Source: JAGLHV01 sp023143305 [NCBI: Clostridia bacterium] (GTDB lineage Bacteria; CBDUZB01; JAGLHV01). Taken from it: a stretch of DNA of 15,559 bases. Positions within the stretch are counted from its first letter, which is position 1; every line of letters starts with the position of its first letter. The DNA is taken from positions 1 to 15,559 of the forward strand of contig DAOVVV010000045.1 in the NCBI GenBank assembly GCA_030637025.1, read 5' to 3'. Below the pieces are notes generated by a model. The model did not search any database. It saw nothing but the letters and a program-made list of their open reading frames with translations, and was not told the origin of the DNA. Positions 1-14,442 of this stretch are shown one piece after another. The translations under genes were made by a program, and so were the position numbers.

Positions 1-85
1 ATGGGGGATTGTTTTATTGTATTAGTATTGCTTTAAGAAAGAAAAGAAGAGAGAACTAAAACTAAATACAGGAGAAATAATAAGG

Positions 86-1033
86 GTGATGAGTAAAAAG
101 AAAATAAAAATTATTTTTTTTTTGATTTTTATTAATTTTTGGACACAACCTCTATTTGCTTTAACTGTTGTAGTAATTCAGGATAGAAAATTTGATAGCT
201 ATAAGGATGCCTACACAGGGTTTAAGCAGGAAATAAAAAAAAGCAATGAAAAAATAGACTTTATTTTTTATAATCTGAAAAAAGATAATTTCGAACAAAT
301 AATAAGAGATATAATATTAAGGGAACCGGAATTAATTTTTAGTTTAGGTGAACAAACAACCAGGGCAATAAAAAACAGGGTTAATAAAACTCCGGTAATA
401 TTTTGTCTGGTACTGAATCCTGTAGAAAAAGGTTTAGTTGAATGCATAAAAAGTACGGGTAATAATCTTACGGGTGTGTGTTTGGATATTCCGGTAGCTA
501 CTCAATTTTTAGCTTTGCAGCAGGTAATTCCTTCTGCTAAACGTATAGGGGTTATTTATAATCCGTTTAAAACAAATTTAATAGTTGAAGAAGGAAAAAA
601 AGTGGCGGAAAAGTTAGGACTACAATTAATATCACGCAGAGTTTATTCTCAAAAAGAAGTTCCTGATGTTTTAAAATCTTTTAAAAATAATATAGATGTT
701 TTATGGGGGGTGCTGGATACTACCGTTTTTACTTATCAATCGCTTTCTTTTATTTTAAAATCTACTTTAAAAGATAAATTGCCTGTATTAGGTTTTTCAG
801 TAAATATGGTGAAAACAGGAGCACTTTTATCTTTATATACTGATTATAAAGATATGGGTAGACAGGCCGGTGAGATTGCCTTAAAAATAATTAATGGGGA
901 TAAACCCGATGATATTTCTGTTTCTTTTCCAAGAAAAATAACGATGGCAATTAATCTTAAAGTGGCAAAAATAATCGAAATAGATATACCGGAAAAAACA
1001 ATGAAAAATAAAGATATTAAATTTTTTAAATGA
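86..1033 (+). CDS. Secreted ABC-type solute-binding protein (PF04392 / COG2984 family)
   Basis: This is a periplasmic binding protein of the ABC_sub_bind family, the group related to TrpX-like amino-acid binding proteins. A basic start (KKKIK) is followed by a hydrophobic stretch and a cleavage-like site after LFA near residue 25. There is no lipobox Cys, so the product is probably a soluble periplasmic protein. The mature part shows family signatures: 'LGEQTTRAIKN' (~86-96), 'TPVIFCLVLNP' (~101-111), 'LTGVCLD' (~127-133) and 'RIGVIYNP' (~152-159). The length of 315 aa is normal. The start is ambiguous: GTG at 86 or ATG at 89, with AGGAG at 70-74 favouring GTG slightly by spacing. No permease or ATPase gene follows. 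Instead a chemoreceptor gene starts 45 bases downstream, so the protein may deliver its ligand to that receptor rather than to a transporter (inference). The ligand cannot be read from the sequence. Confidence 0.85.
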   Translation: MMSKKKIKIIFFLIFINFWTQPLFALTVVVIQDRKFDSYKDAYTGFKQEIKKSNEKIDFIFYNLKKDNFEQIIRDIILREPELIFSLGEQTTRAIKNRVNKTPVIFCLVLNPVEKGLVECIKSTGNNLTGVCLDIPVATQFLALQQVIPSAKRIGVIYNPFKTNLIVEEGKKVAEKLGLQLISRRVYSQKEVPDVLKSFKNNIDVLWGVLDTTVFTYQSLSFILKSTLKDKLPVLGFSVNMVKTGALLSLYTDYKDMGRQAGEIALKIINGDKPDDISVSFPRKITMAINLKVAKIIEIDIPEKTMKNKDIKFFK

Positions 1034-1078
1034 AGAATATAGGTTAAGAGAATAATAGAAGAATAAAAGGAGGAAAAA

Positions 1079-2734
1079 ATGGAAGAGTTGACCCAGGAAA
1101 AAGAGTGGAAAAGAAGTATGGGTTTACAGAAGAAAGCAATTATTTATATTGGTGGTTTAATAATTTTTATCTCAACAATACTTAGTATTTTTTTTATTGT
1201 GCAGTATAGGAAACAAGTATATCGTAGTTTAGGAGAACGGGGACTTGCTTTGGCCAAAAATTTAGCTTATAACAGTGAATATGGGATTTCTATTGCTAAT
1301 GAAGATATACTAAGTAAACTTATTGAAAGCATTGTTCAGGTTCAGGAAAAAGAAGTGGTTTATGTTGCTATTCAGGATAAATACGGGAAAATAATAGCCA
1401 GTAATAATATTAAGGAAATGCTTGATTTGTTCGAGGGAGAAAAAAATAAAAAGGCTTTGCAACTGGTTATTCCCAAAGCAATATTTTATGAGATAAACAA
1501 GAACACTATATTAGATATTATTGTTCCTGTGTATACAAGGGGAGAAGACTTATTATTGTCGGAGGTCTCTTTGTTTTCCGGTAAAAAAGAAGACGGGATA
1601 TTTGGAAATAAAATAGGTGTTGTCCGGGTGGGTCTTTCCTTAGAGAATGCTGTTTTAGAAACTAGAAAAATACAAGTGATTACTTTTTTATCAACGGTTT
1701 TAACAATTATAATTTGTTTTGTACTTTCCTTTATTTTTATAAATAGAATAATTGTTCCCATCAAAGAATTATTAAAAGGGACAGAAAAGGTTGCCAAGGG
1801 GGATTTATCCTGCTGGATTAAAATAAAGGAGGAAAATGAAATAGGCCTGTTGGCTAAAGGATTTAATTTAATGACTAGAAGTTTGAATTCTTTAGTTGTT
1901 CAGCTTCGTAATGCTGCTTTACAGATAACTTCAAGTTCAGGAGAAATATTGTCTGCTTCTGAGCAGCAATCCAGTGGTGCCAGTGAGCAGGCAGCATCAG
2001 TAGCAGAAACTACGGCTACAGTGGAAGAATTAGCGGCTACTTCTAAAAATATTGCTTACACCTCTGATTCATTAGTTAAAAAAGCAGAAGCGACTTTAGA
2101 TGTGACCCGTGAAGGAGAAAAAGCAATAAGAGAAACAATGCAGGGAATGAGTGAAATAAAGTTGAAAACGCAGGAATCAGCCAAAAATATTTTAGCATTA
2201 GGAGAAAAATCGCAAAGGATAGGCAGGGTTATTGAAATTATAGATGATATAGCCGACCAAACTAATTTATTAGCTTTGAATGCTGCTATTGAGGCGGCCC
2301 GGGCAGGAGAGGCAGGAAAGGGTTTTGCGATAGTTGCAGTAGAGGTAAAAAAATTAGCGGAAAATGTAGTAATATCTACTAAGCAAGTAAAAGAAGTAAT
2401 TAGTGAAATTCAATCTTCTACTAATAAATCAATTATGGTTACAGAGGAAGGAATAAAAGGAGTAGAAAGAGGAGTAGTGTTATCACATAAAGCCGGAAGA
2501 GTTCTGGAAGAAATATTAGAAATGATAAAAGAAGCTAATATTTCAGCCAAACAAATTGGTTTGGCTACACAACAACAAAGAAGTGCTACCGATCAGGTAG
2601 CGATAGCTATGAAACAAATTGCAGAAGTGTCTAATCAATCAGTTATTTCTTCTAAACAGGTAACTTCTGCTACGCGTCAGTTAGGATTGTTAGCAGAGAA
2701 ATTGAGAGAAATGGTGGGAAAGTTTAAAGTATAA
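1079..2734 (+). CDS. Methyl-accepting chemotaxis protein (two-TM chemoreceptor)
   Basis: This is a membrane chemoreceptor that controls CheA activity. Domains in order are TM1 ~18-41, an extracytoplasmic sensor of ~155 residues (~42-198; Cache/CHASE-like in feel, family not certain), TM2 ~199-222, HAMP ~223-275, and the cytoplasmic signalling coiled coil ~285-551. The hairpin tip around 387-415 contains IADQTNLLALNAAIEAARAG, which is diagnostic of MCPs. Gln/Glu-rich stretches near 294-320 look like methylation helices. There is no C-terminal NWETF-type CheR tether. The start is well supported by AGGAGG at 1068-1073. The gene sits between a solute-binding protein and cheA in the same direction, so it is probably the input of this pathway. 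No cheR gene for methylating it is present in the window, although cheB is. Confidence 0.95.
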   Translation: MEELTQEKEWKRSMGLQKKAIIYIGGLIIFISTILSIFFIVQYRKQVYRSLGERGLALAKNLAYNSEYGISIANEDILSKLIESIVQVQEKEVVYVAIQDKYGKIIASNNIKEMLDLFEGEKNKKALQLVIPKAIFYEINKNTILDIIVPVYTRGEDLLLSEVSLFSGKKEDGIFGNKIGVVRVGLSLENAVLETRKIQVITFLSTVLTIIICFVLSFIFINRIIVPIKELLKGTEKVAKGDLSCWIKIKEENEIGLLAKGFNLMTRSLNSLVVQLRNAALQITSSSGEILSASEQQSSGASEQAASVAETTATVEELAATSKNIAYTSDSLVKKAEATLDVTREGEKAIRETMQGMSEIKLKTQESAKNILALGEKSQRIGRVIEIIDDIADQTNLLALNAAIEAARAGEAGKGFAIVAVEVKKLAENVVISTKQVKEVISEIQSSTNKSIMVTEEGIKGVERGVVLSHKAGRVLEEILEMIKEANISAKQIGLATQQQRSATDQVAIAMKQIAEVSNQSVISSKQVTSATRQLGLLAEKLREMVGKFKV

Positions 2735-2810
2735 TCATAAAAACTATTTAAGTATATAAGTGGGGTTGGATATAAACTTGTAAATATATTTATTTTCGGG
2801 GAAATAAAAA

Positions 2811-5117
2811 ATGGAAAAAAGTTTTGATCGAAATATGTTTTTAGATAAATTCAAGGAAGAAACCAAAGAACATCTTCGGAAATTAAATCAGGACTTGGTA
2901 ATCCTGGAAAACGATTCTGAAAATGCAGAAATACTTGAAGAATTGGAACGGGAAGTACATACACTGAAGGGTTCAGCTAAAATGATGGGGTATAATGACA
3001 TAGCGGAAATAACTCATAAGATGGAAGATATTTTTGGGTTATTAAAGCAGAAAAACATTGATTTTAAAAAACAAATGGTGGATATTTTATTCGAATCTCT
3101 GGATGCAGTGGATGATTTACTAAGTGCTCTTCTAAAAGGAGAAAAACATGATGTTAAGGTAAAGTATATTTGCAGAAAATTAGAAAAAATTAGTAAAGGT
3201 GAAGAAATTCTTTCCTCTGATTTTAATAAAAGAGAAGCAATAAAAAAGAAGAAAACAATAAGAACAAAAATAGAAAAGAAGGAAGAAAAGCGAAAAGTAG
3301 AAGAAAAAGTAGAAGAAAAAGTAGAAGAAAAAGTAGAAGAAAAGAAAGAAAGAAAAGAGAGAAGAAAAGTTTCTTTTCCCTCGAGAGAGATATCGGAAAC
3401 TATTCGGGTAGATACCTCAAAAATGGATAAGTTAGTAAATCTTATGGGGGAAGTTGTCGTGATGCAGATAAAATCTGAACGGTATCTTGCCAGAATGAAA
3501 GGGTTAAAATATTTAGCTGAAAAACAGGTTTTTTTGTGGGAAAAAATATATAAAAACAGAATTCAAAAAGGCAATCTTGATTCCAAAGAATTAGAAATGA
3601 TTTTTAATGAGATTAATAATAAAAATGTGCAATTGAGGGATGAAAGTGTTCTTATTTTTAAAGAAAATAGTGAGAATTCCCGGCAAAAGGGGTTGATTAT
3701 TGATTCTTTACAACGTAAATTAATGGCGGTGAGAATGCTTCCCCTTTCGACAGTCTTTGATTTTTTTCCCCGGGCAATTCGGGATTTAGCTAAAGAATAT
3801 GGTAAAGAAATAGAATTAGAAATAGAGGGAGAAAACATAGAATTAGATAAAAAGATATTAGAAGAAATTAAAGATCCCCTAATCCATCTTGTACGTAATG
3901 CAGTGGACCATGGGATAGAAGAATTAAAAGAACGCCGGAGTTTAAATAAACCGTTTGTGGGTAAAGTGAAACTTTTTGCCCGTCAGGAGGGCGGACGGGT
4001 ATATATTTATCTGGAAGATGACGGAAGAGGTATAGATGTAGAAAGATTAAAAGAAATAGCCCTTAAAAAAGGATTCATTGATAAAAATATTTTTGAAAAA
4101 ATTAGTGATAGGGAAGCAATGTATCTCCTTTTCGAACCTGGATTAAGCACAAGCCCGATTATTACAGATGTTTCCGGCCGGGGTATAGGAATGGACGTAG
4201 TAAAGAGTAAAATTGAAGGATTAAAAGGGATGGTTTTAATTGAATCAGAGAAAGGAAAAGGAACAAAATTTTCACTTTCTTTGCCTTTAACTTTGGCTAC
4301 TACCCGGGTACTTCTTGTAGAATTGGAGGGAGGAGATGTTTTTGCTATTCCCATTGCTTCTATAGAAACAGTAAATAAGGTTTATTTCCGAGATATTGTT
4401 TATGTGGAAGGAAAAGAAGCTTTTAGATTGGGGAGACGAGTAATTCCTTTAATAAAATTAAGCGATTTATTAGGGTTATCTGTTCAAGAAAATAAAAAGG
4501 ATGAATTTTTTGTTGTGGTACTTAGTCATGCGAGGCAAAGAATAGGAGTTGTGGTGGATAAACTAATGGAAGAAGAAGAAATAGTTATAAAAAATTTAGG
4601 TAATTTTTTAAAAAGAATTAAAAACATAACCGGGACTACTTTATTAGAAAGCGGAAAAGTAGTATTAGTGCTAAATGTTTCGGAAATAATACATCTGGCA
4701 AGTATGATTGATAAGGTAAAAGTTTTTCGTAGTCGGGAAAAAAAGAAAAAAATACCATCAATTTTAGTAGTGGAAGATTCTCTAACTACACGGGAATTAG
4801 AACGGAATATTATAGAATCGGCAGGGTACAATGTGGAAGCAGCAATAGATGGGGTGGAGGCTACCGAAAAATTAGACGGTAAAAAATTTGATTTGTTAAT
4901 AACTGATGTTCAAATGCCCCGAATGAATGGATTTCAATTAACATCTTGGGTAAAGAAAAAAGAAAAACATAAAGATATGCCGGTAATTATTGTGACTTCT
5001 TTAGAGAAAGAAGAAGAAAAGAAAAAAGGTATTAAAGCAGGGGCGCAGGCTTATATTGTTAAATCATCCTTTGACCAAACTACCTTATTGGATACAATAG
5101 AAAGATTGATTAAGTAA
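2811..5117 (+). CDS. cheA: Hybrid chemotaxis histidine kinase CheA with C-terminal receiver
   Basis: This kinase autophosphorylates on a histidine phosphotransfer domain and passes phosphate to aspartates of receivers. HPt is ~1-110 with phospho-His at H50 (HTLKGSA). A Lys/Glu-rich linker (~140-190) takes the place of a recognisable P2 docking domain and holds four KVEE repeats. The dimerization/P3 region is ~195-320. The ATPase core has an N box HLVRNAVDHG (359-368), a G1 box DDGRGID (403-409) and GRGIGMD (456-462). The CheW-like regulatory domain is ~495-635. A receiver spans ~648-768 with acidic pair E655/D656, phospho-acceptor D699 (TDVQMPRMNG) and K752. HPt-kinase-CheW-REC order is that of WspE/FrzE-type hybrids, not the flagellar CheA of enteric bacteria. 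The receiver probably acts as a phosphate sink or second output. The RBS GGGGA lies 8 bases before the ATG. Confidence 0.95.
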   Translation: MEKSFDRNMFLDKFKEETKEHLRKLNQDLVILENDSENAEILEELEREVHTLKGSAKMMGYNDIAEITHKMEDIFGLLKQKNIDFKKQMVDILFESLDAVDDLLSALLKGEKHDVKVKYICRKLEKISKGEEILSSDFNKREAIKKKKTIRTKIEKKEEKRKVEEKVEEKVEEKVEEKKERKERRKVSFPSREISETIRVDTSKMDKLVNLMGEVVVMQIKSERYLARMKGLKYLAEKQVFLWEKIYKNRIQKGNLDSKELEMIFNEINNKNVQLRDESVLIFKENSENSRQKGLIIDSLQRKLMAVRMLPLSTVFDFFPRAIRDLAKEYGKEIELEIEGENIELDKKILEEIKDPLIHLVRNAVDHGIEELKERRSLNKPFVGKVKLFARQEGGRVYIYLEDDGRGIDVERLKEIALKKGFIDKNIFEKISDREAMYLLFEPGLSTSPIITDVSGRGIGMDVVKSKIEGLKGMVLIESEKGKGTKFSLSLPLTLATTRVLLVELEGGDVFAIPIASIETVNKVYFRDIVYVEGKEAFRLGRRVIPLIKLSDLLGLSVQENKKDEFFVVVLSHARQRIGVVVDKLMEEEEIVIKNLGNFLKRIKNITGTTLLESGKVVLVLNVSEIIHLASMIDKVKVFRSREKKKKIPSILVVEDSLTTRELERNIIESAGYNVEAAIDGVEATEKLDGKKFDLLITDVQMPRMNGFQLTSWVKKKEKHKDMPVIIVTSLEKEEEKKKGIKAGAQAYIVKSSFDQTTLLDTIERLIK
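3294..3341 (+). repeat. In-frame 12-base minisatellite in the cheA linker (4 copies)
   Basis: Four perfect tandem copies of AAAGTAGAAGAA encode KVEE x4 (residues 162-177) in the charged linker between the HPt and dimerization domains. The period is a multiple of three, so copy-number change would lengthen or shorten the linker without a frameshift. Confidence 0.9.
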
Positions 5118-5160
5118 AGAAGAGGGTTATAAAGATAAAATACTGCGAGCGAAAGGGGTT

Positions 5161-5188
5161 TTGCCCTAGACTGAGTTAGTTTTATAAA
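5161..5188 (+). promoter_or_regulatory. Weak candidate internal promoter before cheB
   Basis: TTGCCC (5161-5166), a 16-base spacer and TATAAA (5183-5188) lie in the 92-base cheA-cheB gap. The -10 is good and the -35 is poor. A short GC-richer stem (AGGG, 6-base loop, CCCT) overlaps the -35. It might give cheB and downstream genes their own expression, but it is tentative. Confidence 0.25.
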
Positions 5189-5209
5189 TATATACCAGGG
5201 AGAATTATT

Positions 5210-6259
5210 GTGAGTGGTAAAATTAGAGTAGTTATTACTGATGATTCATTAATAGCCCGAGAATTAATTAGAAAGATTCTGGAAACAGATGATCAAATTG
5301 AGATAGTAGGAGTGGCTAAAAACGGAAAAGAAGCGGTGGAAATGGTTTCTGCTTTAAAACCAGATATAATAACATTAGATCTAAGAATGCCGGTAATGGA
5401 TGGGTTCAAAGCGATTGAACAAATAATGGCTTTTAATCCTACACCTATTTTAGTGATTACAGCAACTTCTTTTAAGAAAAAACAGGAAATAGTTTTTGAA
5501 GCATTAGCTTTGGGAGCTTTGGATATAGTAGTTAAGCCATCTCCTGAGATGTGGGTTGATTTTTCTCGTGCAGGAGGAGAGTTAATTAAAAAATTAAAAA
5601 TACTTTCCGGGATACCCGTAGTTACTCATCTTCAAGGGAAAAAGAAAAGTTTAAAAAAGATTACTCTCCCTGGAAATCTTAAAGGATTTAAAGTGATAGC
5701 TATTGGTGCTTCGACTGGGGGGCCACAGGCATTATTACGTATTCTTAGCCGTTTTCCCTCTGATTTTCCTGCAGGAATAGTTGTTGTTCAGCATATTGCT
5801 GCCGGTTTTACGGAAAGATTAGTTGAATGGTTAAATAAAAGTTGTAAAATTTCTGTCCAGGTAGCAAAGGATGGTCAAAAAGTTATTCCGGGACAGGCTT
5901 TAATAGCAGCTAATGGAAATCATTCGATAATAGATGAAAACGGACTGGTAAAACTTAGTAAGTCTTCCCCTGTAAATGGGCATCGGCCTTCGATTGATAT
6001 TTTATTTTCTTCTGTTGCTTCGGTTTATAAATCAGATACTATTGGGATTATTCTTACCGGAATGGGAAAAGATGGAGTTGAGGGAATGAAAAGAATAAAA
6101 AGGAGTGGAGGAAAAACAATTGCACAGGACAAAGAAAGTTGTGTAGTTTTTGGAATGCCTAAAGTTGCTATTGATAATATGAAAATAGATAAGATTGTAA
6201 CTTTAGATCGTATAGCAAGTGAAATAATTAACATTTTAAAGGAAGAAAAAGATGGTTAA
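5210..6259 (+). CDS. cheB: Chemotaxis response regulator / protein-glutamate methylesterase CheB
   Basis: CheB removes methyl groups from (and deamidates) receptor glutamine/glutamate residues. It is activated when its receiver is phosphorylated by CheA. The receiver is ~1-120 with D11/D12 and phospho-acceptor D57 (LDLRMPVMDG). The CheB_methylest domain is ~160-345. The full catalytic triad is visible: S168 in GASTGGP, H195 in VVQHI and D288 in GMGKDG. The length of 349 aa matches the E. coli enzyme. Translation starts at GTG 5210, supported by AGGGAGA at 5197-5203. The end overlaps the next gene by 8 bases, so the two are translationally linked. As no CheR is encoded nearby, its substrate receptor must be methylated by a distant enzyme, or the domain serves another adaptation role. 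Confidence 0.95.
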   Translation: MSGKIRVVITDDSLIARELIRKILETDDQIEIVGVAKNGKEAVEMVSALKPDIITLDLRMPVMDGFKAIEQIMAFNPTPILVITATSFKKKQEIVFEALALGALDIVVKPSPEMWVDFSRAGGELIKKLKILSGIPVVTHLQGKKKSLKKITLPGNLKGFKVIAIGASTGGPQALLRILSRFPSDFPAGIVVVQHIAAGFTERLVEWLNKSCKISVQVAKDGQKVIPGQALIAANGNHSIIDENGLVKLSKSSPVNGHRPSIDILFSSVASVYKSDTIGIILTGMGKDGVEGMKRIKRSGGKTIAQDKESCVVFGMPKVAIDNMKIDKIVTLDRIASEIINILKEEKDG

Positions 6260-6623
6260 AGGGAAAATATTGGTTATTGATGATAGCCCGACAGTAACAG
6301 CTATATCCAGGTGTACTTTAGAAAATGCTCAATATGAAGTGATTACTGCAATTAATGGGAGTGAGGGACTGGCTAAAGCCCGGAACGAAAAACCTGACCT
6401 GATAGTTCTTGATATTATACTTCCGGATTTAGATGGATATAAGGTTTTAGAGTTACTTAAGGGAGATCCCCAGACTAAATCTATTCCGGTATTAGTATAT
6501 ACTGCATTAGGAAAAGGAACTTTTTCTGAAATAGCTTTGGAACGCGGAGCTGTTGGTTTTATTTCAAAACCTTTTCAGGGAGAGGAATTAATTAGAAAAA
6601 TAGAAAGACATATAAAAAAATAA
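6252..6623 (+). CDS. Single-domain CheY-like response regulator
   Basis: This is a stand-alone receiver of 123 aa with no output domain. The acidic pocket is D10/D11, the phospho-acceptor is D54 (LDIILPDLDG), the switch Thr is T84 and the conserved Lys is K106 (ISKPF), so it is intact. It begins inside the last codons of cheB (8-base overlap), with AAGGAAG before the ATG. It may compete with the receivers of CheA, CheB and the downstream cyclase for phosphate, or carry the signal to another target. It is clearly similar to the receiver of the next gene (shared DDSPTV and EKPDLI.LDI), which suggests local duplication. It is not called cheY because no flagellar genes are present and its partner is unknown. 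Confidence 0.93.
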   Translation: MVKGKILVIDDSPTVTAISRCTLENAQYEVITAINGSEGLAKARNEKPDLIVLDIILPDLDGYKVLELLKGDPQTKSIPVLVYTALGKGTFSEIALERGAVGFISKPFQGEELIRKIERHIKK

Positions 6624-6676
6624 AATAACTGAAGAAAGTGTCTATAGAAAAAAATTACAAATAAGAGGAAATAAAT

Positions 6677-8161
6677 ATGGATAATAGCAAAATTAAGATA
6701 TTAATTGCAGATGATAGTCCTACGGTTGTAGAGATGATCCGATTTATTTTAGAAGAAAAGGGCTATACTACAGTAGTTGCTGCTGATGGGGTAGAGGCAA
6801 TAAATAGGGTTTATCAGGAAAAACCGGATTTAATTTTGTTGGATATATTAATGCCTAAGATGAATGGTTATCAGGTTTGTCGCCTTTTAAAAGGAAATAA
6901 AGATACTGCTTTTATTCCGGTTATAATGTTGGCGGCTTCTGAACAAAAAAGCGATGAATTTTGGGGAATAGCAACCGGAGCAGATGAATTTTTTACTAAA
7001 GATTTAGCCATGACCCAGCTTGCCGGTACAATTGAAAAAATTCTTAAGATTAAACCGTATTTAGATAGACAAGCTCCTTCCCGTCCTTTCAAGAAGAAAG
7101 AAATTTCCAGTGAAGAAATTCTTTCCCGCGTTAATAATTTACTGGATAAAAAACTTTTTGAATCTACAGTAATTAATGAAATTAGTAAAATAGCCAGTTC
7201 TATTTATGACTATGAGGAAACGGCAAAATCAATCTTAATTTTGTTAAGTAGAATTGTTTATTATGAGGTAGGGGCTTTATTAATAGAAGAAGTTGGAGAA
7301 AAAAAATTATCAATGTTATTAAATGCTGAAGTAAATGCAGACGTGGTTAAGAAAATTAGCAAAAAAATGATTGATGAAATAAACAAGGAAAAACCTCAGG
7401 AAAAGAGAAAACTTGGTTCATTTAAAACTAAAATTTTTAATGAAGAATATCAGAAAGAAAGTGCAACTAAAAAGTTAAAAGCTTTTTTTAGTGTTACTTT
7501 AAAAGCAAGAGGAGGAATAATTGGGATATTAGCGTTGGCCAGTAGTAAGGAAAGTTCTTTTTCCAAAGAGAATTTAGACACTTTAACTTTAATGGCTGAT
7601 CAAATTTCCATGGTAATTAACAATGTTTGTTTATATCAAAAAATAAATTATCTTTCTATAACCGATGGTTTAACGGAATTATATAATTATCGATATTTTC
7701 AGGATATGTTAAAAAGAGAGTTTGAAAGGGCTCGCAGATATGAATTTTATCTTTCTTTAATAATGATTGATATTGATCACTTTAAAAAAGTTAATGATAG
7801 CTATGGTCATCAACAAGGAGATATAATATTAAGAGAATTGGGAATTAGGTTTAAAAAAGAAGTTCGGGAGCGATTGGATACTCCGGTCAGGTACGGTGGG
7901 GAAGAATTTGCTTTTATTCTTCCTAATACAGGTAAAAAAGGAGCATTTGTAGTGGCAGATCGGATTAGAGAGAGAATTGCTGAATATAAATTTCCGGGAA
8001 GAGACAAACCTCTAAGAATTACTTTAAGCTTGGGAGTAGCAAGTTATCCGGCAAAGGGGATAGAAAAGTTTGCTGATTTGGTTAAAAAGGCAGATGAAGC
8101 TTTATATCGTTCAAAACAGGAGGGAAGAAACAAGGTTTCTGTTTATGAAGAAAAAAAATAA
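6677..8161 (+). CDS. Response regulator diguanylate cyclase (REC-GAF-GGDEF)
   Basis: The enzyme makes cyclic di-GMP from two GTP, gated by receiver phosphorylation. The receiver is ~1-125 with D12/D13, phospho-acceptor D56 (LDILMPKMNG) and K108. A GAF-like region is ~160-320 and the GGDEF domain ~325-490. The catalytic motif GGEEF is intact (407-411), as are the metal/nucleotide signatures MIDIDHFKKVND (363-374) and GHQQGD (377-382). Two departures stand out. The usual switch Thr/Ser of the receiver is Ala86. The product-inhibition site RxxD is not canonical: D401 is in place but residue 398 is Glu, with Arg at 397 and 399. An RBS (AGAGGA) precedes the ATG. Following hybrid cheA and cheB, it is the likely main output of the cluster, as WspR is for Wsp, though WspR lacks a GAF domain. 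Confidence 0.93.
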   Translation: MDNSKIKILIADDSPTVVEMIRFILEEKGYTTVVAADGVEAINRVYQEKPDLILLDILMPKMNGYQVCRLLKGNKDTAFIPVIMLAASEQKSDEFWGIATGADEFFTKDLAMTQLAGTIEKILKIKPYLDRQAPSRPFKKKEISSEEILSRVNNLLDKKLFESTVINEISKIASSIYDYEETAKSILILLSRIVYYEVGALLIEEVGEKKLSMLLNAEVNADVVKKISKKMIDEINKEKPQEKRKLGSFKTKIFNEEYQKESATKKLKAFFSVTLKARGGIIGILALASSKESSFSKENLDTLTLMADQISMVINNVCLYQKINYLSITDGLTELYNYRYFQDMLKREFERARRYEFYLSLIMIDIDHFKKVNDSYGHQQGDIILRELGIRFKKEVRERLDTPVRYGGEEFAFILPNTGKKGAFVVADRIRERIAEYKFPGRDKPLRITLSLGVASYPAKGIEKFADLVKKADEALYRSKQEGRNKVSVYEEKK

Positions 8162-8178
8162 TAGGGAGGCAGATTTTT

Positions 8179-9693
8179 ATGCAGGATGAATACATAAGAG
8201 CATTAATTGCTGTAGCAATAATTATTGGGATAGGACTAGGGATTTATTTATTAGTTTATTTTTTATTGTTTAAAAGACGAGGGGGTCGTCCTTCCAGGGT
8301 AAATTTTTTTTGGGGTTTATTCATCGGATTAATGAGTATAAGATATTTTATTTTTTTAGGACCGCAAGGGATAATATTTAAGCCGTTAGATTTTATTGTT
8401 TTTCTAATTGGTGGTTATATAATAGTTAAAATATGTGATTTTTATCTAATAGAAAGAAAGATAGAAACAGGAGAAATTACTTTCCCTTCAAAATGGCATA
8501 AGGCAATTCGAAGATTGAGTTATTGTTTATTGGCTTTTATCAGTGCTTTAATAATGTGGAAGGGTGATTTTCTTCCCTGGTTTGTTCTCTTTGGGATAGT
8601 AGTTATTGTTGTGACTGTTGCTTTACAGGATTGGTTGCAATCTGCCGTTAATGGGTTGCAATGGGGGAAGCTTTTTGAGGTAGGTAATTGGCTTGTTGTA
8701 GGGGATAAAGAGGGAAAAGTTGTTGAAGTAAATTTACAAGGCTTAAAATTACAAACAGAAGATTTTAACTCTTTATTTATTCCTTCTGCCGTTCTTGCTA
8801 AAGAAAAAGTAATAGATTATGGATTATCTACACAAAGACATAATTGTGTAGTTGAAATGGATGTAAATTCTTCGGTGCCTCCTGATAAAGTGAAGGAACT
8901 GTTAGTACAAGGTATTTCTGAAATTCAGGGGGTTAGTAAGCTTCCTTCCCCGCAGGTTTTGATAATTTCATTTGGCAATCTTTGGATAAAATATAAATTG
9001 ACTTTTTGGATAGAAAATTTTTCTGAGCGAAGAAAAATAATATCTAAGGCCTATAATTTAATTTGGTATTATTTTAAAAGGGAAGAAATAGAAAATCCTG
9101 CCCTTGTTTATGATATATATGCTCATATAATTTCACCGGAAGAAAAAGCCAGGAAAAAATCACAGGAAATTTTGTACAAAAAAGAAATACTTAAAAGAAT
9201 AAGGTTTTTGTCTGTTTTTACTGAAGAAGCTTTGGCTAAAGTAGTAGAAAAATCAAAAAAACGACTTTTTTTAAAAGGAGAAACAATAGTTAAACAAGAT
9301 CAAAAGGGAGATTTTTTATTTATCGTTTTATCGGGTAAAATTAATTTGAGCAGTAAAAAGAAAGGTTTAAATAAAGAGTTTTTTTCTACTTGTTTGGGAC
9401 CTGGAGATTTTTTTGGGGAAATGTCTGTTTTTATTGATGAAGAGAGTTTATCTACGATAACCATAGAAGAAAGAAGTGAGTGCTTACTTTTAGACAGGGA
9501 AAGCATAAAAAACGGTTTGATTACTAATGCCGCGATTGTCCAACCTATAAGTGAAATTTTAGCGGAAATACAAGCACATCAAAAAGAGAGGATAGAAAAA
9601 GAACTGGATAAAGTAGAAAATATTGTTTCTATGGACCAGAGAATTAAGAATATAGCTTTAAAAATAAAAGAAGTTTTTAAAATACTGCAATAG
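8179..9693 (+). CDS. MscS-family channel with C-terminal cyclic-nucleotide-binding-like domain
   Basis: This is an inner-membrane small-conductance mechanosensitive-type channel. Hydrophobic segments lie at ~8-31, ~43-60, ~69-90, ~113-127 and ~131-155. The last, followed by ALQDWLQSAVNGL (148-160), is the pore/TM3 region, and FEVGNWLVVGDKEGKVVEV (166-184) is the MscS beta domain. A cytoplasmic domain follows. Residues ~345-470 form a CRP/CNB-fold domain with FGEMS (412-416) at the start of the phosphate-binding cassette. This architecture is that of the bacterial cyclic-nucleotide-gated (bCNG) branch of the MscS superfamily. The cassette Arg that normally contacts the cyclic phosphate appears to be Ser423, so cAMP binding is doubtful. 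The gene starts 17 bases after the cyclase stop with a good RBS (AGGGAGG), so it is likely in the same operon. A c-di-GMP or voltage/tension response is possible but unproven. Confidence 0.9.
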   Translation: MQDEYIRALIAVAIIIGIGLGIYLLVYFLLFKRRGGRPSRVNFFWGLFIGLMSIRYFIFLGPQGIIFKPLDFIVFLIGGYIIVKICDFYLIERKIETGEITFPSKWHKAIRRLSYCLLAFISALIMWKGDFLPWFVLFGIVVIVVTVALQDWLQSAVNGLQWGKLFEVGNWLVVGDKEGKVVEVNLQGLKLQTEDFNSLFIPSAVLAKEKVIDYGLSTQRHNCVVEMDVNSSVPPDKVKELLVQGISEIQGVSKLPSPQVLIISFGNLWIKYKLTFWIENFSERRKIISKAYNLIWYYFKREEIENPALVYDIYAHIISPEEKARKKSQEILYKKEILKRIRFLSVFTEEALAKVVEKSKKRLFLKGETIVKQDQKGDFLFIVLSGKINLSSKKKGLNKEFFSTCLGPGDFFGEMSVFIDEESLSTITIEERSECLLLDRESIKNGLITNAAIVQPISEILAEIQAHQKERIEKELDKVENIVSMDQRIKNIALKIKEVFKILQ

Positions 9694-9750
9694 AAAAGTA
9701 TCTTGTATGGGCAATCTTTTTATTCAGACTGTGTCACAATCCCCTTTTTT

Positions 9751-9836
9751 GTAGTCGCAGGTTTTTTTCCAAATCCGCCTGAGGTTGAGCGGACAAGTCG
9801 CTCGCGGAAAAGCTTCGACGATAACGTTGCGGCTAC
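9751..9836. repeat. Imperfect palindromic element (structured spacer, MITE- or REP-like)
   Basis: The ends pair over 9 bases: GTAGTCGCA (9751-9759) with TGCGGCTAC (9828-9836), one G-T wobble. Inside are TCCGC/GCGGA (9774-9778 / 9789-9793) and GTCG/CGAC (9797-9800 / 9816-9819), which gives a branched fold. It is more GC-rich than its surroundings. No clear target duplication or ORF is seen. It could be a non-autonomous mobile remnant or an RNA structure between the channel gene and coaX. Confidence 0.5.
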
Positions 9837-9848
9837 CACATAAAAATA

Positions 9849-9886
9849 TGAGTTATGACTCAGTTTGATTCTCAAGTATCCGGATA
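9849..9886. promoter_or_regulatory. Two short palindromes upstream of coaX
   Basis: TGAGT-TATG-ACTCA (9849-9862) and the perfect palindrome TATCCGGATA (9877-9886) lie about 80-120 bases before the coaX start. Such symmetry is compatible with operator sites, but no matching promoter is evident and no regulator is known. Confidence 0.25.
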
Positions 9887-9967
9887 ATTTAGAGAAGCAG
9901 TCAGGAAAACGGTAACAATAATAGTAAAAGAAAATAAAGGATTAATAACCTACATAAAGGAAATAGC

Positions 9968-10732
9968 GTGCTTTTAGTAATAGATATAGGTAATAGTAAT
10001 ATTGTTTTTGGAGTCTATCAGAAAGAATCATTATTGCATACTTGGCGGAAAGTTACCGGGAAAAAAGTAATTTCAGGCAACTACTCTAAAGACCTTCTAA
10101 GAGAGTTAGACTTTAAAAAAATCAGGAAAGAAGAGATTAATGGGATAGAAATTGCCTGTGTAGTTCCTTCTCTTTTACCTGATTTTAAAAAGTGGTGTAA
10201 AGATTTTTTTTCAGTAAATCCATGTGTGGTGAAACCGGAAGAAAACGCATATGTTAGAATTTTATGTGATAATCCCTCTGAAGTAGGAGCAGACCGTATT
10301 GTAAATGCTGTTGCGGGTTATAGTAAATACGGAGGACCTTTAATCATTGTAGATTTTGGTACTGCTACTACTTTTGATATAATAGGTATTAAAGGTGAAT
10401 ATCTGGGAGGAGTTATTGTTCCCGGGATAGGAATTTCAGCAGAAGTGTTATTTGAAAAAGCGGAAAAACTTCCTTTAGTAAAACCATTAAAACCGGACAA
10501 GGTGGTGGGTAAAAATACAGAAGAAAGTATCCAGGCAGGCTTGTTTTTTGGAGCTATAGGGCAGGTAAAGGAAATTATCAGTAGGATTAAAAAAGAAATT
10601 AATATTTCTCCTAAGGTAATTGTTACCGGAGGATATGCTGAATTAATGAAAAGGGAGATAAAAGAAGTAATAATTGATGCTTGTTTAACTCTGGAAGGGT
10701 TAAGGATTATATATGAGAAAAACAGGCAATAA
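9968..10732 (+). CDS. coaX: Type III pantothenate kinase
   Basis: This cytoplasmic enzyme phosphorylates pantothenate with ATP, the first step of coenzyme A synthesis. CoaX differs from CoaA by its ASKHA (acetate kinase/Hsp70-like) fold. The phosphate-binding start DIGNSN is at 6-11, the PSLLP motif at 67-71, the catalytic-Asp motif GADR at 107-110 (D109), DFGTATT at 129-135 with the second nucleotide loop, GGVIVPG at 147-153, GKNTEESIQAG at 181-191 and VTGGYA at 219-224. The length of 254 aa is typical. It starts at GTG 9968, giving MLLVIDIGN, with AAGGAA at 9957-9962 as RBS. It stands alone, with a 274-base spacer before it, and is a housekeeping gene unrelated to the upstream signalling cluster. 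Confidence 0.95.
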   Translation: MLLVIDIGNSNIVFGVYQKESLLHTWRKVTGKKVISGNYSKDLLRELDFKKIRKEEINGIEIACVVPSLLPDFKKWCKDFFSVNPCVVKPEENAYVRILCDNPSEVGADRIVNAVAGYSKYGGPLIIVDFGTATTFDIIGIKGEYLGGVIVPGIGISAEVLFEKAEKLPLVKPLKPDKVVGKNTEESIQAGLFFGAIGQVKEIISRIKKEINISPKVIVTGGYAELMKREIKEVIIDACLTLEGLRIIYEKNRQ

Positions 10733-10740
10733 AATTAAAT

Positions 10741-10789
10741 TGTGTATAATGTGGATAACTTTGGGGATAAAACGAATAATTTATCCACA
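10741..10789. promoter_or_regulatory. Cluster of DnaA-box-like 9-mers
   Basis: Two perfect matches to the DnaA box TTATCCACA lie here: TGTGGATAA (10750-10758, minus) and TTATCCACA (10781-10789, plus). Two one-mismatch copies accompany them: TGTGTATAA (10741-10749) and TGGGGATAA (10762-10770). Four boxes in 49 bases beside AT-rich DNA (T8 run at 10807-10814) resemble part of a replication origin or a DnaA-binding regulatory site. No dnaA, dnaN or rpmH gene is in the window. Confidence 0.5.
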
Positions 10790-10871
10790 AATATTCATTA
10801 TTAGTATTTTTTTTGCATAAGTTGTTTTTAGATAAGGGATTGATATATGGTTGAGTAATATCATGGTTTTA

Positions 10872-10918
10872 CTCTCCGCCATAAACTTGAACTTTATGCT
10901 CAGATTTATGGCGGAGAG
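10872..10918. repeat. 14-base inverted repeat that includes the tRNA 3' end
   Basis: CTCTCCGCCATAAA (10872-10885) is the exact reverse complement of TTTATGGCGGAGAG (10905-10918), with a 19-base loop. The right arm covers the last 10 bases of the tRNA-Ser including CCA. No T-run follows on the minus strand, so it is not a standard terminator. Confidence 0.85.
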
Positions 10919-11002
10919 GGAGAGATTTGAACTCTCGCTAGCCCTTAACAGGCTACTACAGGTTTAGCAAACCCGCCCCTTCAGCCACTTGGGTACCTCT
11001 CC
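10909..11002 (-). tRNA. tRNA-Ser (anticodon GCT, reads AGC/AGT)
   Basis: Read on the minus strand, the gene starts GGAGAGG at 11002 and ends CCTCTCC-G-CCA at 10909. The acceptor stem pairs over 7 bases and CCA is encoded. The anticodon stem CGGGT/ACCTG encloses loop TTGCTAA, giving anticodon GCT. The long variable arm (TAGCC...GGCTA) is the class II hallmark of tRNA-Ser. The T arm is GAGAG-TTCAAAT-CTCTC. The total of 94 bases with CCA is normal. Confidence 0.96.
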
Positions 11003-11020
11003 TCACCATTTCTTTCGGTA

Positions 11021-11049
11021 ATGTTAGCAAAATAAAAAGTATTTGTCAA
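11021..11049 (-). promoter_or_regulatory. Sigma-70-type promoter of the tRNA-Ser gene
   Basis: On the minus strand a perfect -35 TTGACA (11049-11044) is followed by a 17-base spacer and -10 TAACAT (11026-11021). Transcription would start about 10 bases before the tRNA 5' end at 11002. Confidence 0.7.
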
Positions 11050-11088
11050 TACTGATTTAGAATTGTGTCATTTAAGAAATCAACTACC

Positions 11089-11224
11089 CCGCAGCAAGCT
11101 GCGGACCGTTCTAATCCCTTCAAGGGAGTTTATGCTGAGCAAAACGAAGTACTCAGGATAAACTCAGCTGAAATGAGCAGGATTAATTCGACTACAGAAT
11201 TTTTGTCAGCGTAGCTGAAAAACT
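11089..11224. repeat. Hairpin-dense gene-free stretch
   Basis: The 333-base gap between the tRNA and the PAC2 gene holds no credible ORF but a series of inverted repeats: CCGCAG-CAAG-CTGCGG (11089-11104); CCCTT-C-AAGGG (11116-11126); a 14-pair stem with one mismatch, 11126-11139 with 11152-11165; and TCAGC-GTA-GCTGA just before 11220. The long stem's loop region shares CTGAGCAAA-CGA with the terminator loop near 15486-15500 in reverse orientation. It looks like stacked intergenic palindromic repeats; function unknown. Confidence 0.6.
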
Positions 11225-11254
11225 CTAAGTCTCATTGAATTAAAAAAATTAAGA

Positions 11255-11283
11255 TTGACTTTTTGTGTTTCCTGTGTTAATTT
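11255..11283 (+). promoter_or_regulatory. Candidate promoter of the PAC2 gene
   Basis: TTGACT (11255-11260), a 17-base spacer and TAATTT (11278-11283) lie about 50 bases before the ATG. The -35 is strong and the -10 weak. Confidence 0.35.
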
Positions 11284-11335
11284 TTTAATAAGAGAGTAAA
11301 TTTTAAATTGTTAAAAAAATAGAAGGTTAATTAGA

Positions 11336-12256
11336 ATGCAAGATATAAAAATTTATCAGGAGATAAAGATAAAAAAGCCGGTTATGTTTGCTGCCTGGCC
11401 GGGAATGGGAAATGTAGCTCTGGGTGCTATTGATTATTTGAGAAAAAAGATGAAAGCAACATTATTTGCTGAAATTGATATTGGCCGGTTTATTATACAT
11501 GATTCTATTATCATTGAAAAAGGAATAGCGAAACTTCCTTATTTGCCCAAAAACCTGTTTTATTATTTGCCCGAACCTGAATTAATTATTTTTGAGGGTG
11601 AATCTCAATTGATAGGAACGCCGGGTCTGAAGTTAGTAGATTTAATTTTAAATTTTGCCGAGGAATATAAAGTACAAAGAATATATACCGGAGCAGCATT
11701 TCCTTGCCCTATGAATCATAATGAGCGTTCTTCTCTCTATGCTACAGCAAATAGTGCCGGCTCAAAAGATTTCCTGGAAAAGAAAGGGATCGAAGTTTTG
11801 GGGGAGGGGCAGATTTCAGGTTTGAATGGGTTATTAGTCGGTTTTGCAAAACTTAGACAAATCGAGGCTGCCTGCCTGTTAGCTACAATACCTTTTTATG
11901 CTATAAATTTTCCCAACCCTAAAGCTTCTAAATTATTATTGGAAATGTTTATGAAAATATTAAATCTTCAAACTTTGGATTTTAAAGATTTGGATAGGGA
12001 TATTAAGAAAATGAATAGTAAAATGAAAGAGATTGAAGAGAAGATAAAAGATATTTTTCCCCTGAAAAAAGAGGATAAAACACAAATTAAAGAAGAAAAA
12101 GCACCTCATTATGTAATAGAAAAAGTAGAAAAACTCTTTCAAGAAGCCAGGATAGATAAGGAAAAGGCTTATTTATTAAAAGAAGAATTAGACAGATGGA
12201 ATTTATATAAACTATATGAGGATAAATTTTTAGATTTATTTAGAAAACATCATTAA
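11336..12256 (+). CDS. PAC2-family protein (proteasome-assembly-chaperone-2-like, PF09754)
   Basis: This belongs to the PAC2 / COG1938 family, named after a eukaryotic proteasome assembly factor but widespread in archaea and some bacteria where its role is unknown. Family marks are WPGMGNVALGAIDYL (21-35), IIFEGESQ (84-91), IYTGAAFP (116-123) and ISGLNGLLVG (160-169). The predicted fold is a single alpha/beta domain of ~210 residues. It is followed by a basic, Glu/Lys-rich helical tail (~215-306) likely to form a coiled coil. The length of 306 aa is typical of the prokaryotic members. The RBS GAAGG lies 9 bases before the ATG. No proteasome or ATPase gene lies beside it. It converges with the DUF1015 gene downstream, so the two are not cotranscribed. 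Confidence 0.85.
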   Translation: MQDIKIYQEIKIKKPVMFAAWPGMGNVALGAIDYLRKKMKATLFAEIDIGRFIIHDSIIIEKGIAKLPYLPKNLFYYLPEPELIIFEGESQLIGTPGLKLVDLILNFAEEYKVQRIYTGAAFPCPMNHNERSSLYATANSAGSKDFLEKKGIEVLGEGQISGLNGLLVGFAKLRQIEAACLLATIPFYAINFPNPKASKLLLEMFMKILNLQTLDFKDLDRDIKKMNSKMKEIEEKIKDIFPLKKEDKTQIKEEKAPHYVIEKVEKLFQEARIDKEKAYLLKEELDRWNLYKLYEDKFLDLFRKHH

Positions 12257-12314: not shown

Positions 12315-13604
12315 TTATTTTAAGGAAAGACGGATTTGATTAAGGACTAACCCTGTAAGTAATTTCGGATAAAAATAAGTTGTTTTTTGAGGAAGGGTTA
12401 TTCCTGTGACCGCAATATTCTTAATTTCTTCAATGGAAGCTGGGAGTAAAAAGAAGGCGATTTTAAATTTTCCTTTATTGACCAGATTAATTGCTAAATG
12501 TGCATCTCTTGTATAAGAAAGGTTTTTTTCATATTTTGTTTTACTCTTAAGTCCCAATAAATTTTTTAAAATATACTGGTGAAGGATGTGGGTAAAAGAT
12601 AAAACGGGGGTAACTTTGTTTTTTTTCAAAGTTAATAAATAATACTTGTTCTTATCTTTTTTATACATTCCAAAAGCACAGATGTTTTGTCCCTTCATTT
12701 TTTCTAACCGGGAAAATAATATTTCTTTTCGTTTGAATACTTCTATCTGAAAATTATTTGCTAAGTTTTTCTCCAGATTGGCTAATTTTTTTTCGGGTAA
12801 AGAAGAAATTAATCTATGAGTTGGCAAAATAGTAAGGTTTTCATTTTTCATATTAGAAAAAAACATCATGACATAATCAAAGGAAAGGTTTTTTTTAAGA
12901 GAGGATGATTTTTTCTTTATTTCATTTTTGTAATTAAGAGCTGTTTCATAACGGTGATGTCCGTCTGCAATAAAGATTGTTTTGTTTTTCATCTTTTTGC
13001 ACAAGTTATTTATAATTTTGGTGTTTGTTATTTTCCAAATTTTATGTTTTATTTTTTCTTCGTCTATCAGATTAATATTCGGATTCTTTTGGACAGTGTT
13101 TTTCAGGATATTGTCTATTTGGTTTGTCTTGTCCGAATAAAGAGAAAAAATACTTGAAGAGTTTATTTCACATGTTCGAAGGAGATTTAACCTATCCTTT
13201 TTAGGACGGCTTAAAGTCTTTTCATGAGGGAAAACAACTTTTTTCTTAAAGTCCTCTAATTTAATTAAAGCTATAAACCCAACTTGTTTTTTCTTTTTCC
13301 CTTTGAAAATATATTCTTCCTGGTAAACATAAATGCAAGGCTTTTCATCTCTCAGGAAAACACCTTCTTTTAACCAATTGTTGAAATGTTCTTTTGCCCT
13401 GGTGTATTTATTATTGGTTTTGGCCGTGTCAGTGGGAAATTCCTGCCCCAAAATTATTCGAATAATATTGTTTTTGTGTTTACGGTAATATTTTTTTTGT
13501 TCTTGAGGAGAAATAACATCATATGGAGGGGTGACTACTTGAGAAATATTTCTAATTTTTTTAGGATTATATAAAACCCCTTTAAAAGGAATTATTTTTG
13601 CCAT
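12315..13604 (-). CDS. DUF1015-family protein
   Basis: This is a conserved protein of unknown function (PF06245) found in many anaerobic and thermophilic bacteria and in archaea. Family marks, numbered from the chosen start, are IIPFKGVLYNP (4-14), VVTPPYDVIS (23-32), FPHEKTLSRPKKDRLNLLR (125-143), the core motif IADGHHRYETAL (212-223) and ILPTHRL. The length of 429 aa is full. Two in-frame ATGs compete. AAGGA touches the outer one (13613) but lies 9 bases before the inner one (13604), so the inner start MAKIIPFKG is chosen. The GHHR motif resembles that of ParB/sulfiredoxin-fold serine kinases (inference). It is transcribed toward the PAC2 gene. Confidence 0.88.
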   Translation of the reverse strand: MAKIIPFKGVLYNPKKIRNISQVVTPPYDVISPQEQKKYYRKHKNNIIRIILGQEFPTDTAKTNNKYTRAKEHFNNWLKEGVFLRDEKPCIYVYQEEYIFKGKKKKQVGFIALIKLEDFKKKVVFPHEKTLSRPKKDRLNLLRTCEINSSSIFSLYSDKTNQIDNILKNTVQKNPNINLIDEEKIKHKIWKITNTKIINNLCKKMKNKTIFIADGHHRYETALNYKNEIKKKSSSLKKNLSFDYVMMFFSNMKNENLTILPTHRLISSLPEKKLANLEKNLANNFQIEVFKRKEILFSRLEKMKGQNICAFGMYKKDKNKYYLLTLKKNKVTPVLSFTHILHQYILKNLLGLKSKTKYEKNLSYTRDAHLAINLVNKGKFKIAFFLLPASIEEIKNIAVTGITLPQKTTYFYPKLLTGLVLNQIRLSLK

Positions 13605-13654
13605 TTTCACCATTCCTTACTTAAAAATAAATTTTTTCTAACAAAGTTTAATAG

Positions 13655-13887: not shown

Positions 13888-14442
13888 ATGGATGACATTT
13901 GTCTCAATATAAAAAACACCAAAGTAAAAGTTTGCTGTGGTGATTTACTAACACAGGAGGTAGAGGCTGTTGTCTCTCCTGAATCAACCAAGCTGGAAAT
14001 GGATTTAGGAGTTGCAGCTATTATAAAAGAAAAAGCAGGAGAAGCTGTTCAAAGAGAAATAGCTAAAATTGGGACTATTCCTGTAGGGGAAGTAGTAGTA
14101 ACTTCGGCCGGAGCTCTTGGTGTAAAATATATTTTTCATGTAGCTACCTGGGAAAATATGAAATTGCCGGTAAGAGAAAATATGCAGATAGCGTTAAAGA
14201 ATTGTCTCTTACATGCAGAAGAAATGAAAGTGAAATCTATTGCGTTTCCTACTTTAGCATTGGTTAAGGTAAAACTCGCTTATGATATGTGTGCCAGGGT
14301 TATGATGGAGGAAGTTTTTCGTTATTTACTAAATAATGACAGTTCTCTGGAACTGATTGTGTTTAATTTGTTTAACGAAAGTAGTTTTAATTCTTTTAAA
14401 AAAATGACTAATATTTTAAAAGAAGAGTTTCTTATTATTTAA
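13888..14442 (+). CDS. Divergent macro-domain protein
   Basis: This is a single macro domain, a fold that binds ADP-ribose or related nucleotides and in some members removes ADP-ribose or acetyl groups. Visible features are the N-terminal strand VKVCCGDLL (13-21, family GDIT), VEAVVS (25-30, family VDAIVN), GVAAIIKEKAG (41-51), G-VVVTSAGALGVKYIFHV (67-85, family iT.gy.L.a..iiH.v) and IAFPTLA (118-124). Key ligand loops are altered. The NAAN segment is SPES, the GGGV loop is EMDLGV, and the second Gly-rich loop after FPTL reads ALVKVKLAY. Ordinary ADP-ribose binding or hydrolysis is therefore doubtful. The length of 184 aa is standard. It sits 65 bases behind a consensus promoter and 20 bases before hisG, so the two are probably cotranscribed. 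Confidence 0.8.
   Translation: MDDICLNIKNTKVKVCCGDLLTQEVEAVVSPESTKLEMDLGVAAIIKEKAGEAVQREIAKIGTIPVGEVVVTSAGALGVKYIFHVATWENMKLPVRENMQIALKNCLLHAEEMKVKSIAFPTLALVKVKLAYDMCARVMMEEVFRYLLNNDSSLELIVFNLFNESSFNSFKKMTNILKEEFLII

Follow-up and report, generated by a model that had tools for sequence, protein, structure and literature searches.

The described systems closest to the locus treated here are Wsp of Pseudomonas and Burkholderia (WspA–F with WspR or WspH; PMC8552884, in excerpt), cluster 2 of Halomonas titanicae, a published Wsp-like cluster outside Pseudomonas (PMC5907407, in excerpt), the class of alternative cellular functions (ACF), whose pathways are marked by a CheR fused to TPR repeats (PMC3447774, in excerpt), and the F2 systems of spirochaetes (PMC7666581, in excerpt). 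The locus occupies positions 1079–8161 of a stretch of 15,559 nucleotides from contig DAOVVV010000045.1 (“the window”) and encodes a methyl-accepting chemotaxis protein (MCP), a hybrid CheA, a CheB, a lone receiver (REC) and a REC-GAF-GGDEF diguanylate cyclase. We consider it likely that these five proteins belong to an ACF-type, Wsp-like system driving cyclic di-GMP (c-di-GMP), along with a coupler of two fused CheW domains and a CheR-TPR protein whose gene is unlinked.

With Wsp (PMC8552884, in excerpt), this system shares the length of the receptor hairpin, a CheA with a C-terminal receiver, a CheB, a CheR-TPR of WspC architecture, two CheW domains and a REC-GGDEF output. It differs in that the genes do not follow the wspA–F order, the CheW domains are fused and CheR-TPR is unlinked, and furthermore in the GAF-like region of the cyclase, the extra lone receiver and the sCache-type sensor. 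Cluster 2 of H. titanicae (PMC5907407, in excerpt) likewise has a 40-heptad (40H) receptor, CheA-REC, CheR-TPR, CheB, a CheY-like protein and a receiver-bearing cyclase; its cyclase, however, combines an Hpt domain with two receivers in place of REC-GAF, its CheR and CheW are encoded in the cluster, and its second CheW-like protein is without part of the fold. The ACF class with CheR-TPR includes multidomain regulators such as REC-GGDEF, some with GAF or PAS, and most of its CheR-TPR genes lie inside the cluster (PMC3447774, in excerpt), whereas in the genus of the window the gene is found outside it. Spirochaete F2 systems offer a precedent both for a CheW gene placed away from its cluster and for a coupler that carries a second domain, but that coupler is CheW plus a CheR-like domain, not CheW-CheW, and the class is flagellar (PMC7666581, in excerpt). 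The parts and logic of the window system are already known; among the systems of its known group it is fairly unremarkable.

What we observed directly are the parts of the system, their number per genome, their order, their motifs and their relatives. All five core open reading frames (ORFs) are on the + strand, separated by 76, 92, −8 and 53 bp: the MCP (1079–2734), with a sCache-type periplasmic domain, a HAMP domain and a 40H signalling hairpin of WspA length, assigned from Pfam and from the hairpin alignment; CheA (2811–5117), read from Pfam, motifs and tree as Hpt, H-kinase_dim, HATPase, CheW-like and REC; CheB (5210–6259), a receiver joined to a methylesterase (Pfam 4.4e-65; GAST, QH and GMGKDG motifs); the CheY-like lone receiver (6252–6623; Pfam), which keeps its Asp, Thr and Lys; and the cyclase (6677–8161), with RYGGEEF at the active site, RERLD in the RxxD place and Ala as the switch residue. 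An earlier note on this DNA had read the same directional run, with four receivers next to a single kinase, and both points are borne out; its view of the architecture as Wsp-like with a c-di-GMP-type output is likewise supported. CheA has no P2 domain by Pfam and carries Hpt, N-box and G-box motifs; indeed, the sequence motifs expected for kinase, methylesterase and cyclase activity are all present. The GAF matches of the cyclase fall slightly below the Pfam cut-offs (best 28.2 vs. 28.6 bits, E 2.5e-6). A promoter and terminator scan of positions 1–11,400 did no better than shuffled sequence (45 vs. 42.3 and 7 vs. 5.7).

The earlier note had described the system as compact and without CheW or CheR. 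For the nine Pfam-scanned window proteins this holds: no CheW gene, CheR gene or flagellar family is found among them (the ORFs at 9968–10732, 12315–13613 and 14463–15356 were unscanned), in line with the note's remark that no flagellar gene is near. For the organism it does not hold. The CheW and CheR content was taken from the nearest genome (G001) and two genus mates (G002 and G003), not from the window's own genome. G001 has 83% of the window's sampled 31-letter words, and the twelve window proteins compared are 99.6–100% identical in it. All three are drafts, 86 to 97% complete, and each has one CheA (at E ≤ 1e-40), one CheR and one gene with two CheW domains; apart from CheA's own domain, there is no further CheW match in any of the three. 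The CheA gene of G001 is split across contigs C26 and C146 into complementary pieces of residues 1–609 and 603–768. In G002 the double CheW gene (contig C94, 3750–4757) precedes the MCP by some 6 kb on the contig and strand of the CheA cluster, in the order PorV-like, CheWW, TonB-receptor-like ORF, nucleosidase, SNF symporter, ABC_sub_bind, MCP, CheA, CheB, REC, cyclase and MscS-like, all in one direction. The Pfam match of the PorV-like protein is below the cut-off, and the ORF after the double CheW is one that we take to be a TonB receptor.

These findings leave very little room for the idea, raised in the earlier note, that the system works without CheW and CheR and is coupled solely by CheA's CheW-like domain. 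It accords with the scanned window proteins, but not with a double CheW and a CheR in all three genomes alongside the single CheA found in each, nor with a CheW gene on the contig and strand of the CheA cluster in G002; we regard it as extremely improbable. The alternative that the note allowed, coupling by distant genes, is borne out by CheW and CheR elsewhere in the relatives. The apparent lack of both is a window boundary effect, and with it goes the claimed exception of a chemosensory system without them, an appearance that a window edge can create. “Compact” no longer fits either, as relatives with a single run keep the parts closer together.

Where the double CheW gene would lie relative to the window can be estimated from G001. 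Contig C61 carries the PorV-like gene, the double CheW gene (337 aa), the nucleosidase and the SNF symporter, in that order. Contig C26 carries the start of the window at base 231, and its first 143 bases are identical to the 3′ end of the nucleosidase gene on C61; past this overlap come an apparent symporter relic, ABC_sub_bind, the MCP and CheA. With the contigs joined by the overlap, the double CheW gene would extend from about 1934 to about 921 bases before position 1, so that we infer a location ~0.9–1.9 kb upstream of the window. A cheW/cheR pair immediately upstream of position 1 was what the earlier note had named as speaking against it; a two-domain CheW is indeed predicted there, while CheR is elsewhere. 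The apparent symporter relic (L037, 1–316) sits between the nucleosidase and ABC_sub_bind; the symporter gene is whole on L035, and on L039, L064 and L036 it is interrupted by nothing other than contig ends. The phosphorylase-family nucleosidase follows the double CheW in all three genomes, with one gene between them in G002 (L039 2360–3118; L035 2476–3234; L064 1612–2370). It is presumably an MTA/SAH nucleosidase (MTAN), and such an enzyme could remove the SAH produced by CheR.

Both domains of the double CheW keep the NLRG motif, whose Arg aligns with R62 of E. coli CheW, and the two have 41 of 139 residues in common. The AlphaFold model of the protein is moderate (mean pLDDT 66.9, pTM 0.43), and CheW structures head the structure matches of this moderate model. 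In a quick CheW-domain tree, the two domains of the genus fall on different sides. Among the 20 loci that have two coupler domains, 15 show such a split, a count reached in 261 of 20000 shuffles; three of the 15 are the genus mates themselves, the Wsp pair of B. cenocepacia is among the five unsplit loci, and four short CheW pieces were dropped. The best matches outside the genus differ at the top between the two domains, with the CheW domain L121_922 high for both. Holding the six CheW domains of the genus together gives a better likelihood, by 11.7 (p-AU 0.62 in the approximately unbiased (AU) test). The pair may therefore have arisen by tandem duplication, and a fusion of two coupler lineages was not adopted. 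A literature search on tandem, two, double or fused CheW returned nothing recognisable as about a two-CheW coupler; two CheW domains do occur inside CheA (PMC10542144, in excerpt). Other fused CheW pairs are found in L109, L172 and L173, and an ORF open at the locus edge (L121 1–1521, G030) has three CheW domains.

The single CheR gene of each genome is on a contig other than that of the CheA cluster. CheR and TPR repeats form one ORF in G002 (486 aa, where Pfam was run) and in G003 (487 aa). Three membrane-protein-like ORFs adjoin CheR in all three genomes; one of them we take to be MgtC-like, and the other two have no Pfam match. The unlinked position of CheR and the draft state of the genomes also fit the proposal that another chemosensory system, missing from the drafts, is the one served by the double CheW and CheR-TPR, and that the cluster has its own unseen couplers. 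Set against this are the single CheA found in each of the three genomes and the place of the double CheW in the cluster's neighbourhood in G002, and we hold the proposal to be very unlikely.

The class of the system can be read from the receptor and from CheA. Aligned with E. coli Tar, which we take to be 36H, the MCP has two symmetric 14-residue inserts, 28 residues or four heptads beyond Tar, which makes it 40H; aligned with WspA of B. cenocepacia, the hairpin has no insert. The B. cenocepacia reference (L103) is an unannotated record, called Wsp by its order MCP-CheW-CheR/TPR-CheW-CheA/REC-CheB; the Halomonas and Niveispirillum records likewise lack a gene table for the regions used. A tree was built from 52 CheA cores, with few class-labelled references. 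In it the CheA of the genus is outside the clade that holds E. coli CheA (bootstrap 99, SH-aLRT 96); placement in a flagellar class was what the earlier note had named as speaking against its reading. That clade takes in all other receiver-less CheAs and two with a receiver. The CheA of the genus sits among the hybrid CheAs with no resolved sister. Its grouping with WspE of B. cenocepacia is neither found nor rejected (AU p 0.267), the branch being long, and the reading as a true Wsp ortholog was not adopted. FlhA (PF00771), the only flagellar marker tested, has no match in the three genomes, a search that in a control gave matches in 4 of 14 known genomes; together with the tree position of CheA, this led us to set a flagellar system aside.

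Further ACF traits are a CheA without P2 and with a receiver, a combination that ACF shares with F3, F5 and Tfp (PMC10542144, in excerpt), the multidomain response regulator output REC-(GAF)-GGDEF, the fusion of CheR to TPR in G002 and G003, and the non-flagellar setting. Of the traits of Wsp in the strict sense, among which is a rise of c-di-GMP through WspR on contact with a surface, the receptor hairpin has the WspA length (40H) and two CheW domains are present, but in one protein in all three genomes, and the order CheWW … MCP-CheA-CheB-REC-cyclase is not the wspA–wspF synteny used as the criterion in PMC8552884 (in excerpt). All cases of strict synteny reported in the excerpted text of that source are in beta- and gammaproteobacteria. 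When the 60 genomes closest to G001 are taken, G001 among them, 57 have no rank below domain in common with it, and the 62 of 386 genomes listed from the wider search agree, from which we infer that the lineage lies outside Pseudomonadota, and so outside the beta- and gammaproteobacteria. The genus thus has every part of a Wsp-like system, its two CheW domains being fused, in a little-known lineage, the close kin searched being three genomes of one genus.

Similar clusters are found in other genomes. In a search of 386 genomes, a CheA match reaches E ≤ 1e-105 in 42, among them all three genomes of the genus. Outside the genus, we read the neighbourhoods at 20 of the 23 top-ranking sites (G043 and G056 were in an earlier set, and G267 was left out); domains were called with hidden Markov models (HMMs) built for this analysis, and several loci are cut by contig ends. 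A separate CheW is present in 14 of these 20 neighbourhoods, CheR-TPR in 13, CheB in 17 and a REC-GGDEF protein in 7; in the earlier 20, from a smaller search and mostly more distant, the counts are 15, 8, 14 and 1. In four uncut loci of 19 kb (L156, L161, L162 and L171) both CheW and CheR are absent from the surroundings, so that dispersal of the parts is not unusual. Six loci have a REC-GGDEF protein after CheB. These are L155 (G150), L158 (G358), L163 (G288), L164 (G229), L169 (G089) and L170 (G090), and they show the run CheA-REC, CheB, REC-(GAF)-GGDEF as in the window. The six cyclases measure 484–492 residues from the receiver to the end of GGDEF (the whole window protein is 494 aa) and have the receiver signature GYQxCR + FW[GA]...GAD in common with it; a GAF domain between REC and GGDEF is called in five of the six by our HMM and in two by Pfam, below the cut-offs. 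Unlike in the window, CheW and CheR-TPR are close by in all of these but L163, a locus cut at 6.1 kb, and the CheW genes are separate, one in L155 and L158 and two in L164, L169 and L170; no MCP was found in L158. The six genomes span five family codes, with G089 and G229 in one. The window system is in this light one member of an ACF-type spread, in which the coupler is fused and CheR has left the cluster, and the six runs point to an ACF module of c-di-GMP type with a wider distribution than the strict Wsp definition permits.

By analogy with Wsp (PMC8552884, in excerpt), phosphotransfer, coupling, ligand, targets and c-di-GMP output may be pictured as follows. A periplasmic cue, perhaps presented by the ABC_sub_bind protein, would be sensed by the MCP through its sCache domain and would set the activity of the hybrid CheA, with the double-CheW protein joining MCP and CheA in an array and doing the work of the WspB/WspD pair. 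CheA would then phosphorylate the receiver of the cyclase, raising c-di-GMP, and CheB as well, while the lone receiver and CheA's own receiver would drain phosphate. A sink role for CheA receivers is discussed in PMC10542144 (in excerpt), and it fits the absence of CheX from all three genomes (CheZ and CheC were not sought); the lone receiver may be a sink or a second output. Adaptation would be set by CheB and the unlinked, WspC-like CheR-TPR. The likely targets would be PilZ effectors, of which the three genomes have 3, 3 and 6 matches, and exopolysaccharide or type IV pili, not flagella.

Several points weigh against an ACF-type system of this composition and output. CheW and CheR were read from near relatives, and the functional steps are predicted from sequence. 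The upstream placement of the double CheW rests on the 143-base overlap, after which the two G001 contigs diverge, one into the SNF symporter and the other into the relic; two strains in the population would explain this divergence. The AU test also allows the genus CheA to be sister to the E. coli-type clade (p 0.108). In G001, cheR and the TPR part are separate ORFs (L040 2521–3989), either by assembly error or by a true break. With 8, 9 and 7 GGDEF matches per genome (fragments included; the counts for G001 and G002 include the window-type cyclase), the cyclase is only one among several. Finally, the switch position of the cyclase receiver, normally Thr or Ser, is Ala in the window, G001, G002 and G003, which may weaken activation by phosphorylation.

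This last point bears on a rival in which the lone receiver is the main phospho-output, PilG/PilH- or CheY-like and acting on type IV pili or another machine, while the cyclase, having lost both its switch residue and an RxxD I-site, is constitutive or GAF-controlled. The six cyclases of the like clusters all have Thr or Ser at the switch, and five of them have RxxD, where the window, G001 and G002 have RERLD or RESLD (the contig of G003 stops before the I-site); both peculiarities concern the regulation of the cyclase and appear to be specific to the genus. The lone receiver, moreover, keeps Asp, Thr and Lys, and pilus-type T2SSE ATPases are present (6, 7 and 7 matches, PilB and PilT type being judged by length). 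Yet the cyclase receiver still has its phosphoacceptor Asp and its Lys, the cyclase is retained in the cluster at 85% identity to its G002 counterpart, and six other neighbourhoods have a comparable protein after CheB. We think this rival unlikely, though it deserves some weight, and we continue to prefer the cyclase as the main output.

Two further genes flank the core. The ABC_sub_bind (PF04392) gene (86–1033, +; Pfam 1.2e-42), whose product has a signal-peptide-like N terminus by eye, ends 45 bp before the MCP and adjoins it in G001, G002 and G003; the protein is a possible periplasmic partner of the MCP. It has no transporter gene beside it, and the L165 neighbourhood contains a relative (E 7e-41). 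The MscS-like channel with a C-terminal cNMP-binding-like domain (8179–9693, +; Pfam) starts 17 bp after the cyclase and may be a member of the operon; it is in the equivalent position in G001 and G002, and the contig of G003 stops before it. Elsewhere in the scanned loci, the channel has a single weak match (L106, E 3e-6). A local c-di-GMP circuit, in which the channel with its cNMP-type domain would be the receptor and the array would gate an ion channel, seems to us very improbable; the loss of the RxxD I-site and the Ala switch would fit a cyclase retuned for such use.

Searches beyond these genomes gave no closer relatives: a scan of further genome contigs yielded six loci, none near, the best being an Aquificales metagenome-assembled genome at 37%, and among 1122 plasmid records none exceeded 60% identity, so that only reference systems were taken from them. 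A second MCP of about 415 aa, in which no HAMP was found, is encoded in G002 and G003 (L062 8078–9325; L066 2552–3802) beside a gene that by eye resembles a membrane protease; it was not found in G001. In the window itself, a macro-domain protein (PF01661) is encoded at 13888–14442, directly before an ORF read as hisG, an order kept in both G001 and G002.

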